The notes below the pieces were generated by a model. The model did no database searches, was not told the origin of the DNA, and was given only the letters and a program-made list of their open reading frames with translations. Of a stretch of 14,175 nt of DNA, positions 293 to 9,893 are shown one piece after another. Where the stretch lies: NCBI GenBank assembly GCA_030038715.1, contig JASHSO010000195.1:1-14175 (forward strand), written 5' to 3'. This DNA comes from Streptosporangiaceae bacterium. Its GTDB lineage: Bacteria; Actinomycetota; Actinomycetes; Streptosporangiales; Streptosporangiaceae. The translations under genes were made by a program, and so were the position numbers. Position 1 is the first letter of the stretch. Each line of letters begins with the position of its first letter.

Positions 293-667
293 TTAGCGTT
301 GCCGGTGAGCTCGTAGTGCGCGTGCTGCAGCGCTCGGCCGCCTCCGGGCCTGCTCAACTTCGTCCCCCCAGGCGCGCTCGAGCCTGATCCGCAACCGGGC
401 GGCTAGCTGACTGATCGCCTCCGGCATCGTCGCGCCGTCTGAGTGCGCACGGACCGGTCGGCCGTTAACGCTGACCATCGCCCTAGCCGAGGCGGGCTGG
501 TCGACTGCGGGATCCGCGGCCATCGTGAGCACGACGCGGGCGAACAGCACCGGTTCGCCGACGTGCCGCAGCGCGGAGGCCATCCGCCTCCTGGCCAGTT
601 CCCGCATCGCGGGCGGCACCGCGCCGGTCGTCCGCACCTGCACGGCCACAGCCTCGTTGACGGTCAT
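293..667 (-). CDS. Short HPF/RaiA-like ribosome hibernation protein
   Basis: A 124-residue cytoplasmic protein. The ATG at 667-665 is preceded by a strong Shine-Dalgarno (AGGGAGGT, four bases before the start), so I prefer it to the longer open frame reaching 721. The sequence follows the beta-alpha-beta-beta-beta-alpha order of the HPF/RaiA (S30AE) N-terminal domain: a strand around 6-12 (AVAVQVR), a basic helix 17-37 (MRELARRRMASALRH), a strand 39-48 (PVLFARVVLT), strands 62-74 (with SVNGRPVRAH) and a second helix 80-100 ending in RLRIRLERAW. The C-terminal dimerisation domain of long HPF is missing; the tail is a short basic stretch. HPF proteins bind the 30S subunit near the A/P sites and silence or dimerise ribosomes. 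The protein resembles the mycobacterial Rv0079 type in that it is short and divergent. It lies 56 bases downstream of the release-factor-like gene on the same strand, so they probably share an mRNA. Confidence 0.72.
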   Translation of the reverse strand: MTVNEAVAVQVRTTGAVPPAMRELARRRMASALRHVGEPVLFARVVLTMAADPAVDQPASARAMVSVNGRPVRAHSDGATMPEAISQLAARLRIRLERAWGDEVEQARRRPSAAARALRAHRQR

Positions 668-691
668 CGCATACCTCCCTTGTGAGCCTGG

Positions 692-720
692 TGCCGGGAA
701 TCCGGCTAAGTTGCCCGGCA
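692..720 (-). other. Intercistronic inverted repeat between the baeRF and HPF genes
   Basis: TGCCGGG at 692-698 and CCCGGCA at 714-720 form a perfect 7-bp stem with a 15-base loop inside the 56-base gap between the two minus-strand genes. It has no T-run, so it is unlikely to be an intrinsic terminator. It could be a processing or attenuation hairpin that changes the ratio of the two products. The repeat is seen directly; its function is inferred. Confidence 0.35.
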
Positions 721-723
721 CGG

Positions 724-1812
724 TCAGCGCAGCCGAGCGGCGGCCTGGCAGGGCAGCGCCCTGGCCGATACCACCTGGCCGCCGTCATGCAGCGTGCGCC
801 ATGCCATCTCTTCCAGTAGGTCGGGGATGGCCCGTGCTGCTGCTCCCCAGTCACAACACCCGTCGCTGCTGGTGAGTAGCGCATCGCAGCGCTCGCAGTA
901 GAAGCCCGGCACCGTCGGCTGGTCAGCGAGAAGTAGAACGTCGATCTCGCTGGCGTTCACCGCAATGAGGCAGTCGTCCAGCCCGACGGCAGCCCGGAAG
1001 CGGGGGGCGGGATCCGTGACGGCCTGAACCAGCTGCCTCTCGCGCCGCTCGACCCAACCCGCGATGAGAGGCGTGGCAAGTTCTCGCGCCCTGGCCAGCG
1101 TCAGTTCGTGCGGATCCACCGCGAAGCCGCCCGCGTAGCTGGCCAGGACCGCCTGCGGCAACAGGGCCAGCAGGGTGGTGGTCATGTCGGCGTATCCGCC
1201 GATCACGACCGGCCGCGCACCAAGGGCTTTGGCCTGGCGGTCGAGAATGGCTGCCGCGTCCTGGTAGAGGTGCCCCGTATGCTCGGTCAACCGCTCCAGG
1301 CCGGTCGACGGCTGCAGGTACCAGCCGCCGAAGCCGGAAGTCGGCGCGTCCGCGTCGGAGATCGTAGCGACGACCTCGATCCGGTCCGCGGCGACTGACA
1401 GCAGCCAGGCGTGCCGGTGGTCGATGATCACGATCCGATAGTCGGGGTGTCGCTGCAGCGCGGCCAGCAGGGGCCGAACATGCGGCCGTACTGCGAGCAC
1501 GGCCCGTTCGGCGACCCAGCCGGGCAGTGCTATCGCCTCGAGCAGGCCGAGCTGCTCCGACACGAAGATGCACAGCGTGTGGCCGGCGCACTCGCGCACG
1601 CGTTCCGTGACGATGCGCCGCACCAGATGCTCAGCACCCGGCCGCAGCGCCCCCGGCGTGACCATGGTCGCGGCCGCGATCAGGCCGCAGGCGCGAACTA
1701 GCACATCGCCGGAACCCGCCGGGTCCTGCGGCACGTATGTGTAGACAGAAAGAACCGTCTCGTCCGGCGCACAGGTGCTGTGCAACTTCGCTATTTCGCC
1801 GAAGGTAATCAT
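724..1812 (-). CDS. Bacterial eRF1-like release-factor homologue (baeRF / Rv2629 type)
   Basis: A 362-residue protein; ATG at 1812 with a strong Shine-Dalgarno (GGGGAGGT, four bases before the start). Three parts recall the archaeo-eukaryotic release factor fold. The N-terminal part, about 1-130, opens with PDETVLSVYTYV. A middle part, about 131-260, carries IVIIDHRHAWLLSVAADRIE, then GGWYLQPST at 162-170 and VVIGGYADMTTTLLALLP at 202-219. A C-terminal part, about 265-362, has AVGLDDCLIAVNASEIDVLLLAD, as in eRF1 domain 3, followed by a Cys cluster C306-x2-C309-x9-C319-C320 that looks like a zinc ribbon. Length is close to that of M. tuberculosis Rv2629. The peptide-releasing GGQ of true eRF1 is absent; the nearest motif is GGW. 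The family is thought to act in ribosome rescue or stress, but its biochemistry is poorly known. The downstream HPF gene supports a ribosome role. A DosR-like palindrome lies about 50 bases upstream. Confidence 0.75.
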   Translation of the reverse strand: MITFGEIAKLHSTCAPDETVLSVYTYVPQDPAGSGDVLVRACGLIAAATMVTPGALRPGAEHLVRRIVTERVRECAGHTLCIFVSEQLGLLEAIALPGWVAERAVLAVRPHVRPLLAALQRHPDYRIVIIDHRHAWLLSVAADRIEVVATISDADAPTSGFGGWYLQPSTGLERLTEHTGHLYQDAAAILDRQAKALGARPVVIGGYADMTTTLLALLPQAVLASYAGGFAVDPHELTLARARELATPLIAGWVERRERQLVQAVTDPAPRFRAAVGLDDCLIAVNASEIDVLLLADQPTVPGFYCERCDALLTSSDGCCDWGAAARAIPDLLEEMAWRTLHDGGQVVSARALPCQAAARLR

Positions 1813-1862
1813 CGCTACCTCCCCTCAGAGCCATTCGTTGCCGCCAGGACGCTGGTTGGTAA

Positions 1863-1876
1863 GGGTCTAAAGACCC
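1863..1876 (-). promoter_or_regulatory. DosR/DevR-like operator upstream of the baeRF-HPF operon
   Basis: GGGTCTAAAGACCC is a perfect 14-bp dyad. It keeps the core GGGNC-N4-GNCCC of the mycobacterial DosR (DevR) box, whose usual core is GGGACTWWAGTCCC; the only differences are the symmetrical T and A at positions 4 and 11. Its edge lies 50 bases upstream of the ATG of the release-factor-like gene, a normal distance for a DosR site overlapping a -35 region. I could not pick a convincing -10 element. The M. tuberculosis relatives of both downstream proteins belong to the DosR regulon, which is why I read this palindrome as an operator rather than chance. Confidence 0.55.
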
Positions 1877-2228: not shown

Positions 2229-3542
2229 TCACACTCTCTCGGTGCGTGCCGCGCCAACATGCTCCCGGTCGCACGGCGCGCCCGCCGTGCGTCGCACACT
2301 GCGACCGGTGAACAGCGTCGCGACCATGCCGCAGGCGAAGCAGGCGAGAACAGGAACCGGCAGGTGCCCGGCTGGCGCGAAGCCGCCTATCGCGAGCCGG
2401 GTCAGCCCTACGGCGGCGGTTGCGATGCCGGCCAGCAGAAGGACTGGCGACCAGGGTCCGGTCCGCCCGAGCCCGGCGGGGAGCCGCATCATCGGCCGCT
2501 CGGCCCACGTGACAGCCATGACCAGCGGGATGAGCACTATGGTCAGCAGGGCGAACCACGCGCATCGCAGTACCCACCATTCCGCCGCGCCGACGGTCGG
2601 CTGAGGCATCAGGCCGGTGGCGTAGAAGGCCGCCGCGATGACGATGGCTGGCACGAAGTGCCACAGGTACACGTTCATGACCGTGCTGTTCAGGCGCCTG
2701 ACCAGTTGCCATGCCCGGGGTCTGTTGAGCAGCCGGGACGCCCAGGGCTCAGCGGCCAGGACCAGCCCCGCCTGGCCGGCGGCGAAGGCGAGCAACGCGA
2801 CCGACGGCGGATTCGTGTTCCCAGACCCGACCATGTCGACCATGAAGTATCCCGACACCAGCAGCCCGGCCAGCGCGGATGCCCCGATCACGCTCATCGC
2901 GTACGGGCGCCACCTGGGCGATGTCAGCGTGCGGTCCTGCCAGGCAAAGCCCCACTGGTGCATTGATCCCCACACGAAGAAGTAGTTCAGATATCCGATG
3001 ACGTGCCAGTGCGGGCCGACCACGGCGACATCCACCAAGGCGGCCGCGGCGGCCATGCAGACGGGCACCGCGAGACCCCAGCGTCGGTGCGCTGCGAGCA
3101 TCACCGGCGTAACCGTGATCATCACCAGGTAGACGGGAAGGAACCACAACTGCAGAGCGACCAGCCAGCCGGCCTCAGCGAGTTCGGCGGCGGGAACGCC
3201 TGCCGCAAGCGCGGCCGAGACAGCCAGCACGGACACGACGATGTAGACGGCAGTTGGCCAGAACAGTCGCACGGCCCGGTCGCGGACCCACTGGGTCCAG
3301 GTCTCCCCTTGGGCGTGATGCGTCGTCCAGGACTGGGCGTTGACGTACCCGCCAACGAGGAAGAAGACCGGCATCACCTGGAAGATCCACGTCACCCAGC
3401 GTCCCCAGCTGACATATTCCACCGCGTCCACGCCCGACAGGTTGCCGTGCTGATAGGTGACAGACACCAGCAGCCAGTGGCCGTACACCACCCCGCCGAT
3501 GGCGAGGACCCGCATCAGGTCCAGGTAGCGATTCCGTTTCAC
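2229..3542 (-). CDS. Acyltransferase-3 family integral-membrane protein
   Basis: I place the start at the GTG at 3542-3540 (437 residues). It directly precedes KRNRYLDLMRVLAIGGVVYGHW, which corresponds to the first helix of Acyl_transf_3 proteins with the conserved Arg and the probable catalytic His. The frame continues open to 3752, but that part is low-complexity. A modest GGGAAG sits 12 bases upstream. Further family marks are FFLVGGYVNAQSW, WVRDRAVRLFWP (the conserved R..R...R..P segment) and LWFLPVYLVMITVTPVML. About ten hydrophobic helices follow, and the protein ends in a short basic cytoplasmic tail. Family members move acyl groups from a cytoplasmic donor onto extracytoplasmic sugars, lipids or peptidoglycan; the substrate here cannot be read from sequence or neighbours. 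It is monocistronic and divergent from metG across a repeat-rich gap. Confidence 0.82.
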   Translation of the reverse strand: MKRNRYLDLMRVLAIGGVVYGHWLLVSVTYQHGNLSGVDAVEYVSWGRWVTWIFQVMPVFFLVGGYVNAQSWTTHHAQGETWTQWVRDRAVRLFWPTAVYIVVSVLAVSAALAAGVPAAELAEAGWLVALQLWFLPVYLVMITVTPVMLAAHRRWGLAVPVCMAAAAALVDVAVVGPHWHVIGYLNYFFVWGSMHQWGFAWQDRTLTSPRWRPYAMSVIGASALAGLLVSGYFMVDMVGSGNTNPPSVALLAFAAGQAGLVLAAEPWASRLLNRPRAWQLVRRLNSTVMNVYLWHFVPAIVIAAAFYATGLMPQPTVGAAEWWVLRCAWFALLTIVLIPLVMAVTWAERPMMRLPAGLGRTGPWSPVLLLAGIATAAVGLTRLAIGGFAPAGHLPVPVLACFACGMVATLFTGRSVRRTAGAPCDREHVGAARTERV

Positions 3543-3600: not shown

Positions 3601-3630
3601 AAGATCGCAGCAGGAGATCCAAGATCGCAG
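3601..3630. repeat. Tandem 10-bp direct repeat with 20-bp period
   Basis: AAGATCGCAG occurs at 3601-3610 and again, identically, at 3621-3630, separated by 10 bases. The 20-bp period puts both copies on the same DNA face about two helical turns apart, as for paired response-regulator or activator sites. It lies 59 bases upstream of the acyltransferase start and about 60-90 bases upstream of the suggested metG promoter. The repeat is seen directly; a binding protein is inferred. Confidence 0.45.
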
Positions 3631-3665
3631 GGCCGAAAGTCCCGGACCGCCGGGAGTCTCGGCCC
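3630..3665. other. Two-tier inverted repeat in the divergent promoter region
   Basis: Outer arms GGGCCGA (3630-3636) and TCGGCCC (3659-3665) enclose inner arms CCCGG (3641-3645) and CCGGG (3650-3654), with matched 4-base internal loops and a 4-base apex. It can form a stable hairpin as RNA on either strand, or serve as a nested operator. No T-run follows on either side. Confidence 0.45.
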
Positions 3666-7104: not shown

Positions 7105-7152
7105 GTGCGAGCAAGTCTGGCCCCGACGCCCGCCGGCGGCCGTGGCCGATGA
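7105..7152 (+). CDS. 15-codon leader ORF overlapping the GGDEF-EAL start
   Basis: GTG at 7105 follows a strong AGGAGG (7095-7100) at a spacing of four bases and encodes MRASLAPTPAGGRGR before TGA at 7150-7152. The stop shares the ATGA tetranucleotide (7149-7152) with the ATG of the GGDEF-EAL gene, which has no ribosome-binding site of its own. This is the classic arrangement for translational coupling. The peptide is Arg/Pro/Gly/Ala-rich with no run of a single amino acid, so it does not look like an amino-acid attenuator. Alternatively, a sequencing frameshift hides the true N-terminus of the large protein; the peptide would then be its first residues. Confidence 0.5.
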   Translation: MRASLAPTPAGGRGR

Positions 7153-9893
7153 GCGCTGCCTGGATCACCGTTGGCGTGCTGCTGGCGGCTGCCGCCGTCG
7201 CGCTGATGCTGCGCGGCTCTCGCGCCGGGCGCCCGGGCTGCCGCTGGTTCGCCGCGACTGCCGCGCTGTGGGGTGCTGCGTTCGCCGCGCAGGGCGCAGG
7301 CACTGGCTCGGTGATGCCGACCGGAGTGGAGCTGACCCCTGCGGACTTGCTAGCCCTAGTCAGCTTGCCGCTCGCGGTCATGGGCATGCTGCGGCTTGCG
7401 CGCCCCAGCGAAGACCCCGGCACGAGCCTGCGCGCCCGGGTCGCCGACAGCTTCCTGCTCGGACTGTCGCTGCTGAGCATCGGATGGATCGTCCTGTTGC
7501 GATCGGCCTACGTTACTACCGGGGTAGGACCTGGCTCGTTCGCTGTGGTCGTCATTCACCCGCTGGCGGACGTGGTCGCACTGGCCGGCACGCTCTGGCT
7601 GGCTGTCCGGGCTGGCCGCCGCGCGGTAGCGCCGTACCTCGCGCTCTGCGCCACTACTGTGGGCGACTTTCTGGCGGTGCAGGCCAGGGCCACGGCCCTG
7701 CATCCGGGCGCGCTGCCGCAGCTCGCTTGGCTGCTCGGGATCTGTTTGCTCGGGGTGGCTGCGGTGTGGCCGGCCGAGTCGGCTGCCGCCGCGGCTAGAC
7801 CGACGGCCACGACCGCCGGAGCCGCAGCCGCACAGCCAGCCCAGGCGGCCGGTCCTGATCCGCGGCTGACCGCCTTCATCGCCCTGGCCGCAGTCGCCGC
7901 CGCGGCCCTCGTTACCTTCATCTTTGCCGTCGCGGACTGGGGCCATAACGGCTCGCTGCCGTTGCTCCTGACCATCGGCCTGGTGGTGGCGCTCATCGTC
8001 AGGATCACTGGCCTGCTGGGGCAGGAAGCGGCAATGTCAGCACATGCGTTCTTGTCCGGTAACCAGTTCCAGCAGCTTGCCGAGCGCACGAGCGACTCGG
8101 TCCTGCTCTGCGACGCCGTCGGCGTAGTCACCTTCGCCAGCCACGCTGTGACCCAGTTTGGTTACCAGCCCGACCAGCTCACCGGGGTGCGGGTGGCCGA
8201 GCTTGTGCATCCCGACGACCTGCCGGACGCCGAACGCGCGATGGGCGCAGTCGCGGCCCGCGAGCCAGCGCAGGCGCGGAGGTTGGCTTGCCGGATCAGG
8301 TCCGCGGACGGCACGTGGCGCCATGTCGAAGTGGCGATTTCCCGGTACACCGGTGAAGGGCCGGAGGATTTGCTGCTGGTGACCGCCAGGGACGTCAGCG
8401 ACCAGGTCGCGCTGCGCAGGCAAGTAACGCACCTCACTTTCCACGACGGCCTCACCGGCCTACCCAACCGGTCTTACCTGGAGGAACGCGCCAAGGACGT
8501 GCTCGCCAGCCGACGGCAGGCCGCGAGTCCGCAAGGCCAGACCGGCGCTATCTTCGTCGACCTCGACGGTTTCACCGCGATCAACGACTCGGTCGGGCAC
8601 GGAGCCGGCGACGTGCTCCTGGCTCAGGCTGGCCGACGGCTTCGCGGGCTGGTCCCCGGCCACGACACCGTGGCACGCTGGGGCGGTGACGAGTTCGCCG
8701 TCCTGGTGGAGAGCGCCGCCTCCCCCCAGGAGATCGTGGACGTAGCGGAGAGGCTGGCCGGCGCCATCGCCGGGGAGCCCTTCGCGATCGCCGGGCGGGA
8801 GATCTCGATCACGGCCAGCATCGGCGTGGCCTTCGCTGACACCGAAGTGCCCGAGCACCTGCTCCGCAACGCCGACCTTGCCATGTCGAGGGCCAAGGAC
8901 AGCGGCGGCGGCCGGGTCGAGGTTTTCGCCGCGCACATGCACGCGGACCTGACTCGCCGACTCGAACTGGCCGGCGACCTGAGGCTCGCGGTCGCCGACG
9001 GAAGCCTCGGCATCGCCTACCAGCCGGTGGCCGAGCTGGCCACCGGCCGCATTACGAACGTCGAGGCGCTGTTCCGCTGGCCGCGGGACGGTCAGCCGGC
9101 CCAGATGGCCGAGCTGCTGTCCGTGGCCGAGGACTCGGGCCTGATAGTCCCGATCGGCAACTGGCTGCTCCGCGAGGCCTGCCAGCAGGTCGCCAAGTGG
9201 CGCGAGTCAGGCTGGCAGGTGCGCTTGTCGGTCAACCTCTCGCTGCGGCAGGTCAGCTCCGCTGGGCTCGCGGGGTCCGTACTGGCGGCGCTGGACCAGG
9301 CTGGCCTGGCGCGCAGCGCCCTGACGCTCGAGATGACCGAGCGAGTGCTGATCGACGCCGGCGAGCCCGTGCTTGGCGCGCTTGACCAGTTGCGGAGGGT
9401 CGGCGTGCGATTGGCGATAGACGACTTCGGCACCGGGTATGCCTCGCTCGCCTACCTTCGCCAGCTCCCGGTTGATGTCATCAAGATCTCCCCGTCGTTC
9501 GTTGCCGGGCTCGGCACTGACGGCATCCTGGCCATGCTGACGAGGACGATCGTCCGGGTCGGCCACGACCTCGGGATCGAGATAGTAGCCGAGGGTATCG
9601 AGCGGCCAGAGCAGCTTGAGCTGTTGCGAGCGATGGGCTGCGGACTTGGTCAGGGCGCCCTGGTGGCAAGACCCATGACCGCCGGCTCGGTCGAGGAGCT
9701 GGCCGTCTACGACGGCCAGCGGGTGTCCGGCCTGGTAACTGAGCTCAGCCAGGTCGGTGATCTTGGCCGGGCCCGGTTGCCGTCCGGCGAGGTCGGCGAC
9801 CCGGGCCCGGTCGGCATGCCATCCGGCGAAGCCGGAGACCTCGGACCGGCCGCGCCGCCGTCCGACCAGGCCGCAGCCGCCCCGGCGGGCTAG
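7149..9893 (+). CDS. Membrane PAS-GGDEF-EAL cyclic-di-GMP cyclase/phosphodiesterase
   Basis: 914 residues. About nine hydrophobic helices lie in the first 290 residues (for example 5-22, 66-84, 101-118, 240-262 and 269-290), split by an Ala/Pro-rich linker near 211-237. A PAS domain follows (about 305-417, with FGYQPDQLTG and VHPDDL), then GGDEF (about 425-595) and EAL (about 605-855). The GGDEF signature is intact at 512-516, so cyclase activity is possible, but the inhibitory RxxD site is PGHD (503-506) and probably does not bind c-di-GMP. The EAL domain keeps E639-A-L, N696, E728, D758-D759, K779, E815 and Q835, so phosphodiesterase activity is expected. The ATG lacks a Shine-Dalgarno and overlaps the leader ORF stop. 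The C-terminus carries three 13-residue repeats. Similar membrane GGDEF-EAL proteins control development in Streptomyces (RmdA and RmdB are examples). The signal sensed by this one is unknown. Confidence 0.92.
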   Translation: MSAAWITVGVLLAAAAVALMLRGSRAGRPGCRWFAATAALWGAAFAAQGAGTGSVMPTGVELTPADLLALVSLPLAVMGMLRLARPSEDPGTSLRARVADSFLLGLSLLSIGWIVLLRSAYVTTGVGPGSFAVVVIHPLADVVALAGTLWLAVRAGRRAVAPYLALCATTVGDFLAVQARATALHPGALPQLAWLLGICLLGVAAVWPAESAAAAARPTATTAGAAAAQPAQAAGPDPRLTAFIALAAVAAAALVTFIFAVADWGHNGSLPLLLTIGLVVALIVRITGLLGQEAAMSAHAFLSGNQFQQLAERTSDSVLLCDAVGVVTFASHAVTQFGYQPDQLTGVRVAELVHPDDLPDAERAMGAVAAREPAQARRLACRIRSADGTWRHVEVAISRYTGEGPEDLLLVTARDVSDQVALRRQVTHLTFHDGLTGLPNRSYLEERAKDVLASRRQAASPQGQTGAIFVDLDGFTAINDSVGHGAGDVLLAQAGRRLRGLVPGHDTVARWGGDEFAVLVESAASPQEIVDVAERLAGAIAGEPFAIAGREISITASIGVAFADTEVPEHLLRNADLAMSRAKDSGGGRVEVFAAHMHADLTRRLELAGDLRLAVADGSLGIAYQPVAELATGRITNVEALFRWPRDGQPAQMAELLSVAEDSGLIVPIGNWLLREACQQVAKWRESGWQVRLSVNLSLRQVSSAGLAGSVLAALDQAGLARSALTLEMTERVLIDAGEPVLGALDQLRRVGVRLAIDDFGTGYASLAYLRQLPVDVIKISPSFVAGLGTDGILAMLTRTIVRVGHDLGIEIVAEGIERPEQLELLRAMGCGLGQGALVARPMTAGSVEELAVYDGQRVSGLVTELSQVGDLGRARLPSGEVGDPGPVGMPSGEAGDLGPAAPPSDQAAAAPAG
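9753..9869 (+). repeat. Three 39-bp in-frame repeats at the end of the GGDEF-EAL gene
   Basis: Three consecutive 39-base units (9753-9791, 9792-9830, 9831-9869) encode VGDLGRARLPSGE, VGDPGPVGMPSGE and AGDLGPAAPPSDQ. They share the pattern [VA]GD.G.....PS[GD][EQ] and form a flexible Pro/Gly-rich tail beyond the EAL domain. The DNA copies have diverged, so the repeat is not recent. It may serve as a tether or may be free to vary in copy number between strains. Confidence 0.6.

Follow-up and report, generated by a model that had tools for sequence, protein, structure and literature searches.

A Balon-family and RafH-type gene pair behind a DosR-type box: a probable dormancy operon with two hibernation factors in a Streptosporangiaceae bacterium

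Introduction

The mycobacterial genes for Rv2629, a relative of the ribosome hibernation factor Balon, and for the RafH protein Rv0079 lie at separate loci. In mycobacteria, RafH, which is induced by DosR, links the DosR regulon to the survival of ribosomes under hypoxia (PMC10799931), and Balon homologues are hypoxia-induced as well (PMC10799931, PMC10901736). As described in the RafH report, this protein (MSMEG_3935 / Rv0079) has a linker that meets the anti-Shine-Dalgarno sequence and a doubled C-terminal domain (PMC10799931). The Balon report describes Balon-type proteins as being without GGQ, the mycobacterial relatives Rv2629 and Msmeg1130 as inhibitors of translation, and Balon itself as able to bind the ribosome together with RaiA (PMC10901736). 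That baeRF or Balon genes sit beside HPF or RaiA genes is stated both there and in a 2019 release-factor survey (PMC6514570, PMC10901736), so the linkage that an initial annotation of the locus described here pointed out is of a kind already known. For the OsdR regulon of Streptomyces coelicolor, Table 1 of the published study includes Usp, nitroreductase, PPOX and zinc dehydrogenase families, and the main text of the same paper makes no mention of a release factor, Rv2629, Rv0079 or terms beginning with hibernat- (PMC5069765). In the accessible parts of the literature on Balon, RafH, DosR and OsdR, we found no report of a joint DosR-box operon of Balon and RafH, which is no proof of absence.

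Here we describe a locus in which a Balon-family gene and a RafH-type gene stand behind a DosR-type box. Its parts are known ones, the oddity worth testing being a RafH of a single domain, and we consider it probable that it forms a DosR/OsdR-type dormancy operon with two hibernation factors.

Layout of the locus

The window, meaning the whole stretch of 14,175 nucleotides that was analyzed, is the entire contig C393 of a Streptosporangiaceae genome (G000; 3.35 Mb in 607 contigs, 72.7% complete). The features of the locus are as follows.

293..667, minus strand: RafH-type hibernation factor gene, N-terminal domain only; 124 aa, ATG at 667, stop codon ending at 293
668..723, minus strand: gap of 56 bases between the two genes, read from the sequence
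724..1812, minus strand: gene for a ribosome hibernation factor of the Balon family (baeRF family 10); 362 aa, ATG at 1812, stop codon ending at 724
1813..1862, minus strand: stretch separating the box from the start codon and containing a ribosome-binding-type motif, GGGGAGG; candidate promoter region, as judged from the sequence
1863..1876, no strand assigned: DosR/OsdR-type box, GGGTCTTTAGACCC when read along the genes, 50 bases upstream of the Balon-family ATG; position kept in six of six pairs

The tandem arrangement with a 56-base gap was described exactly in the initial annotation, and from the shared minus strand and this short gap we infer that the Balon-family and RafH-type genes form one putative transcript. 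In the open reading frame list, the RafH-type gene has an alternative, longer frame that starts with GTG at 721. The palindrome, claimed as a perfect dyad 50 bases upstream, stands in its place, its distance and its two perfect 6-base arms, but the full 14-mer, GGGTCTAAAGACCC, has AA at its center and is not self-complementary. It has a single exact match in the window, and with up to three mismatches there are three window matches, two of which are this site on both strands, against a shuffle mean of 0.58. When the 200-base upstream region was shuffled 2000 times, an equally good site at 45–63 bases arose with p = 0.001, a band chosen after the sites had been seen. At 1877-1888 there is a weak trace of an abutting second box. 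Elsewhere in the window, positions 7149-9893 encode a 914-aa protein with PAS/GGDEF/EAL-like stretches by eye, amid amino-acid biosynthesis-type genes.

For comparison we used the pairs in five other genomes (G004, G005, G008, G122 and G178), three of which come from the window's own genus; the Balon of G008 is split over two contig ends and was taken as one by assumption.

The two proteins

The product of the first gene belongs to baeRF_family10 (Pfam PF18854; 54.1 bits against a cut-off of 27.1). It scores below the NCBIfam equivalog cut-offs of the MSMEG_1130, AOC03_06830 and Rv2629 groups (33.5 of 480, 24.4 of 330 and 21.2 of 320 bits, respectively), and we therefore file it as a relative only, not as one of those equivalogs. 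A single-sequence search of the PDB gave no match up to E 10, so that a profile and a fold were needed to place the protein. With a six-sequence profile of its family (A2), the top PDB match is Balon (8rd8_B, E 8.4e-6). Its AlphaFold2 model (mean pLDDT 74.9) has a three-domain aeRF1-like fold that, when ranked by Z, is closest to Balon: the top six matches are Balon, Msmeg1130 and Rv2629 chains at 19.6–24.6, ahead of all eRF1 and Pelota chains, and the next match stands at 12.4. When the matches are ordered by Foldseek E-value instead, an archaeal aRF1 takes fourth place among the Balon-type chains. In the alignment of relatives, where 27 of the 29 aligned rows show the loop equivalent to GGQ, this loop reads GGWY(G)L and no glutamine position is conserved. 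Because a Balon-type predicted fold is joined to a loop without a conserved glutamine, the protein is most likely a non-catalytic, Balon-like plug.

The product of the second gene scores 22.9 bits for Ribosomal_S30AE, just under the Pfam cut-off of 23.7. Its best PDB match is RafH (8whx, E 6.5e-15), with the next solved HPF at 6.4e-5, and a profile of six relatives (A3) matches RafH from end to end (E 2.9e-84). The predicted fold (pLDDT 75.2) is also best matched by RafH (8wi7, 48% identity), so that the RafH N-domain is found both in sequence and in modeled fold. Judged by family, profile and predicted fold, both proteins are kin to their namesakes. The RafH copies in the window and in G004 end after the N-domain, at 124 and 121 aa, and the copy in G003, a further genome of the genus, is also short; a tblastn search with two C-domains gave no match in the window, G004 or G003 loci, while the doubled S30AE_C C-terminal domain is present in the RafH of G005. 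As linker and doubled C-terminal domain are missing, the window protein is classed as a RafH-like one-domain protein, not as a full RafH. A canonical long HPF gene, its start lost at the contig end, lies on C97 of the same genome.

Distribution of the pair

A scan of named genomes with the Balon profile returned nine loci, four of them labeled Streptosporangiaceae bacterium, one Trebonia sp. and four Actinobacteria or Actinomycetota; the closest is 64% identical and matches the contig of G004, which belongs to the window's genus. Among 200 genomes drawn from the family, Balon relatives at E 1e-30 occur in 36 and RafH relatives at 1e-15 in 50, and Balon lies next door in 6 of the 30 RafH loci inspected, counting G008 with its Balon broken by contig ends. 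The Balon-RafH pair is thus a minority arrangement. Within the window's genus the pair is found in four of nine genomes; in G001 and G002 a box precedes RafH and a distant Balon is encoded elsewhere, G003 has its short RafH alone, and G006 and G007 (73 and 77% complete) have neither gene. G000, G004, G005 and G008 form one clade in the tree (support 0.996) and the G122 pair branches elsewhere, so the linkage has probably been gained or lost more than once.

When the DNA of G003 (L198, C13) is aligned with that of G004 (L064, C133), the flanks are kept and the Balon stretch is missing in G003, where a tblastn search for a Balon remnant gave nothing above noise (best E 0.22). The idea that a short RafH is always accompanied by Balon is weakened by G003. 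A small DUF7455 gene upstream of Balon in G004 (L064:1003-1419) has a box, GGGCCGTTGGGCCC, near its start, and similar DNA is present in G003.

Conservation of the box

A site with at least seven of the eight fixed positions of GGGNCNNNNGNCCC lies 49–59 bases before the Balon start in all six pairs, window included. The palindrome upstream of related pairs, on which the initial annotation had staked its reading, is therefore kept in place, not letter for letter. Such a site falls in the band of 45–63 bases in 14 of 189 other genes, taken from loci not chosen for boxes. The combined shuffle p for the six pairs is 5e-6, with the band fixed after inspection and three of the relatives from the same genus; taken singly, four of the six loci reach only p 0.05–0.09.

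We also scored upstream regions with a matrix built from 26 published Streptomyces OsdR sites, for which the best possible score is 21.9 (PMC5069765). The window box matches all eight fixed G/C positions of GGGNCNNNNGNCCC, yet its matrix score is only 0.6, and the best-scoring upstream site of the window (p 0.06) lies elsewhere than the conserved box. Because the matrix fails to pick up the window box, we judged sites by the 8-position core and by conservation of position too. The window 14-mer is not identical to the DosR core quoted in the initial annotation, having T/A for A/T at positions 4 and 11, and its matrix score is low. The best upstream sites in the other pairs score 11.0 in G005 (p 0.007), 9.9 in G004 (p 0.010) and 9.6 in G008 (p 0.023), with p 0.13 in G122 and p 0.45 in G178, whose box scores 1.4. 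The G004 site at 51 bases scores -0.9 on a looser matrix, and it is a second site, 13 bases upstream of it, that gives G004 its good score. Such a second box upstream of Balon abuts the first in both G004 (L064) and G008 (L137), at 12–13 bases apart, and a literature search for tandem DevR sites found nothing relevant. In G178 the Balon and RafH genes are transcribed divergently, and the stretch that separates them contains box-like sites.

Among 26 other Balon-family loci, four have a matrix site with p < 0.05. Where RafH has no adjacent Balon, 8 of the 22 loci scanned show a site with p <= 0.05, 83–107 bases before the start, two of these eight being sister genomes; the 22 come from 24 such loci among the 30 inspected, L175 and L189 having been set aside with starts at or near the stretch end.

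The regulator and its regulon in the genome

A dosR homologue, which the reading of the initial annotation presupposed, is present: the response regulator at C196:222-902 matches DevR (PDB 3c3w, E 2.9e-82), and the orthologue is found in 14 of 14 genomes asked, the 13 others having full-length matches of 81–91% identity. Together with the palindrome kept in place, this settles two of the three refuting conditions of the initial annotation in its favor. A DevS/DosT-type kinase lies on a different contig, C486; it is 70% identical to the kinase beside dosR in G005 and matches solved domains of DevS and DosT. A near-perfect box, GGGACCAAGGTCCT, stands 93 bases before the genome's own dosR. By eye, the dosR contig (L123) also has arginine deiminase, ornithine carbamoyltransferase and carbamate kinase-like genes.

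There is no genome-wide enrichment of the box, and in total the reversed control has more sites than the box. GGGNCTNNAGNCCC has a single place in the genome against 8 for its control, GGGNCNTTNGNCCC has 8 sites against 16 for the control pattern, and with up to two mismatches the box has 19 matches against 40, gene placement covering the two of these 19 that lie in the window. Summed over nine genomes the count is 37 against 69, and three of the nine have one more than the control. Support for the box comes from its position and its neighbors rather than from counts. Of the eight GGGNCNTTNGNCCC sites, two fall inside genes and six are intergenic, each of the six no more than 190 bases from the closest gene start, whereas 1 of the 16 control sites is intergenic (exact one-sided p about 0.0013). 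A search for the motif before other dormancy genes had been proposed in the initial annotation as a check, and four of the five other intergenic boxes adjoin dormancy-type genes: a Usp gene, a divergent pair of Acg-type oxidoreductase and HTH-PPOX genes whose contig also has two CBS-BON genes, a PPOX gene that shares its contig with hsp20, and a zinc dehydrogenase gene. The fifth is a second box in the window itself.

2229..3542, minus strand: acyltransferase-3 gene, start GTG; adjoins an intergenic box
3630..3643: second box, GGGACTTTCGGCCC when read along the acyltransferase-3 gene, 87 bases upstream of its GTG

In G005 (C211), the pair stands at the end of an approximately 16-kb run with several boxes and with hydrogenase-like, CBS-BON, nitroreductase-family, Rv1733c-family and HTH-PPOX genes, together with a Usp-like gene for which the call is weak. 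On another contig of the window's genome (C236, L143) there is a long open frame of odd composition, 932 residues on the stretch, with one box-like site; this may be a foreign contig in the metagenome-assembled genome.

Alternative explanations

The hibernation operon could be real while its box serves another palindrome-binding regulator, such as a LuxR-type response regulator or a redox repressor, the likeness to DosR being coincidental. The arms, GGGTCT/AGACCC, do depart from the quoted DosR core at two positions that mirror each other, the box scores low on the OsdR matrix, and the genome has 23 GerE-domain matches, several of them response regulators. However, the same-place sites in G005 and G008 score well on the OsdR matrix (11.0 and 9.6), G004 has its site of 9.9 abutting the same-place site, and the G005 pair sits in a DosR-type cluster, all of which makes a different regulator unlikely. 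It is highly improbable that the inverted repeat serves as a transcription terminator, or arose by chance, in front of two constitutive genes: sites of 7/8 quality are indeed common, 77 of 189 control genes having one within 200 bases, but no T-run follows the repeat, its perfect arms leave only a 2-base loop, and its position is kept in six of six pairs despite diverged surrounding sequence.

A further alternative concerns the first protein, which might have peptidyl-tRNA hydrolase activity and rescue stalled ribosomes ahead of their parking by RafH, as the initial annotation hinted. According to the release-factor survey, baeRF family 10 overall retains a conserved glutamine and might be catalytic (PMC6514570), and glutamines do occur in the neighborhood of the loop. 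The window protein has one close by (GGWYLQ), where G004 and G005 have E or K instead. Another, some nine residues further along, is present in G004 and G178 and replaced by E, R, N or D elsewhere. None of these is conserved among the 27 rows that show the loop, and the best folds by Z are Balon-type proteins, which lack GGQ (PMC10901736); we give a hydrolase little credence. The notion in the initial annotation that one protein parks ribosomes and the other clears them is likewise unlikely, given this loop and the inhibition of translation by Rv2629 and Msmeg1130 (PMC10901736).

Proposed mechanism

The locus is most likely a conserved hibernation gene pair under DosR-type control, and the mechanism proposed here is modeled on known relatives. 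Under low oxygen or redox stress, the DevS/DosT-like kinase would be activated and would phosphorylate the DosR orthologue, which would then bind the box 50 bases before the first gene. Binding would switch on one transcript for both hibernation factors, so that co-transcription and hypoxic induction are predicted. The Balon-family protein, presumably ribosome-bound, would fill the A site from the decoding center to the peptidyl-transferase center and hydrolyze nothing, and the N-domain of the RafH-type protein would fill the decoding-center cleft of the small subunit. Both factors may sit on the ribosome together, in analogy to the Balon-RaiA structure (PMC10901736), in which case idle ribosomes would be blocked and protected twice.

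A bolder version, which we put forward tentatively and consider rather doubtful, is that the one transcript supplies an A-site plug (Balon) and a decoding-center plug (RafH), and that in the window lineage RafH shed its linker and C-terminal domain, which in mycobacteria contact the anti-Shine-Dalgarno sequence and the platform, because the co-made Balon secures the ribosome. The short RafH of G003, with no Balon found, speaks against a strict tie of the shortening to Balon.

Comparison with known systems

That a lineage has both genes behind one box suggests joint use of the two factors in the same stress, with a single low-oxygen switch parking ribosomes with both at once. With this pair, the joint action of Balon and RafH can be tested directly, as can the need for a C-terminal domain in RafH.

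Compared with Balon, Msmeg1130 and Rv2629 (the baeRF-1 clade), the first protein shares only 13–17% identity over the structural alignment, and its gene, unlike theirs, sits behind a DosR-type box together with RafH. The second protein resembles RafH (MSMEG_3935 / Rv0079) in its N-domain, which fits RafH far better than other solved HPFs, but in contrast to the two-domain, DosR-induced RafH (PMC10799931), the window and G004 copies are without linker and doubled C-terminal domain. As in the DosR/DevR regulon of mycobacteria and the OsdR regulon of Streptomyces coelicolor, there are DosR and DevS/DosT-type genes and a similar box, and the companions are shared as well: Usp, nitroreductase, PPOX and zinc dehydrogenase by Table 1 of the OsdR paper (PMC5069765), and Acg and Rv1733c by NCBIfam name. 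What sets this locus apart from both regulons is that Balon and RafH stand here on one putative transcript.
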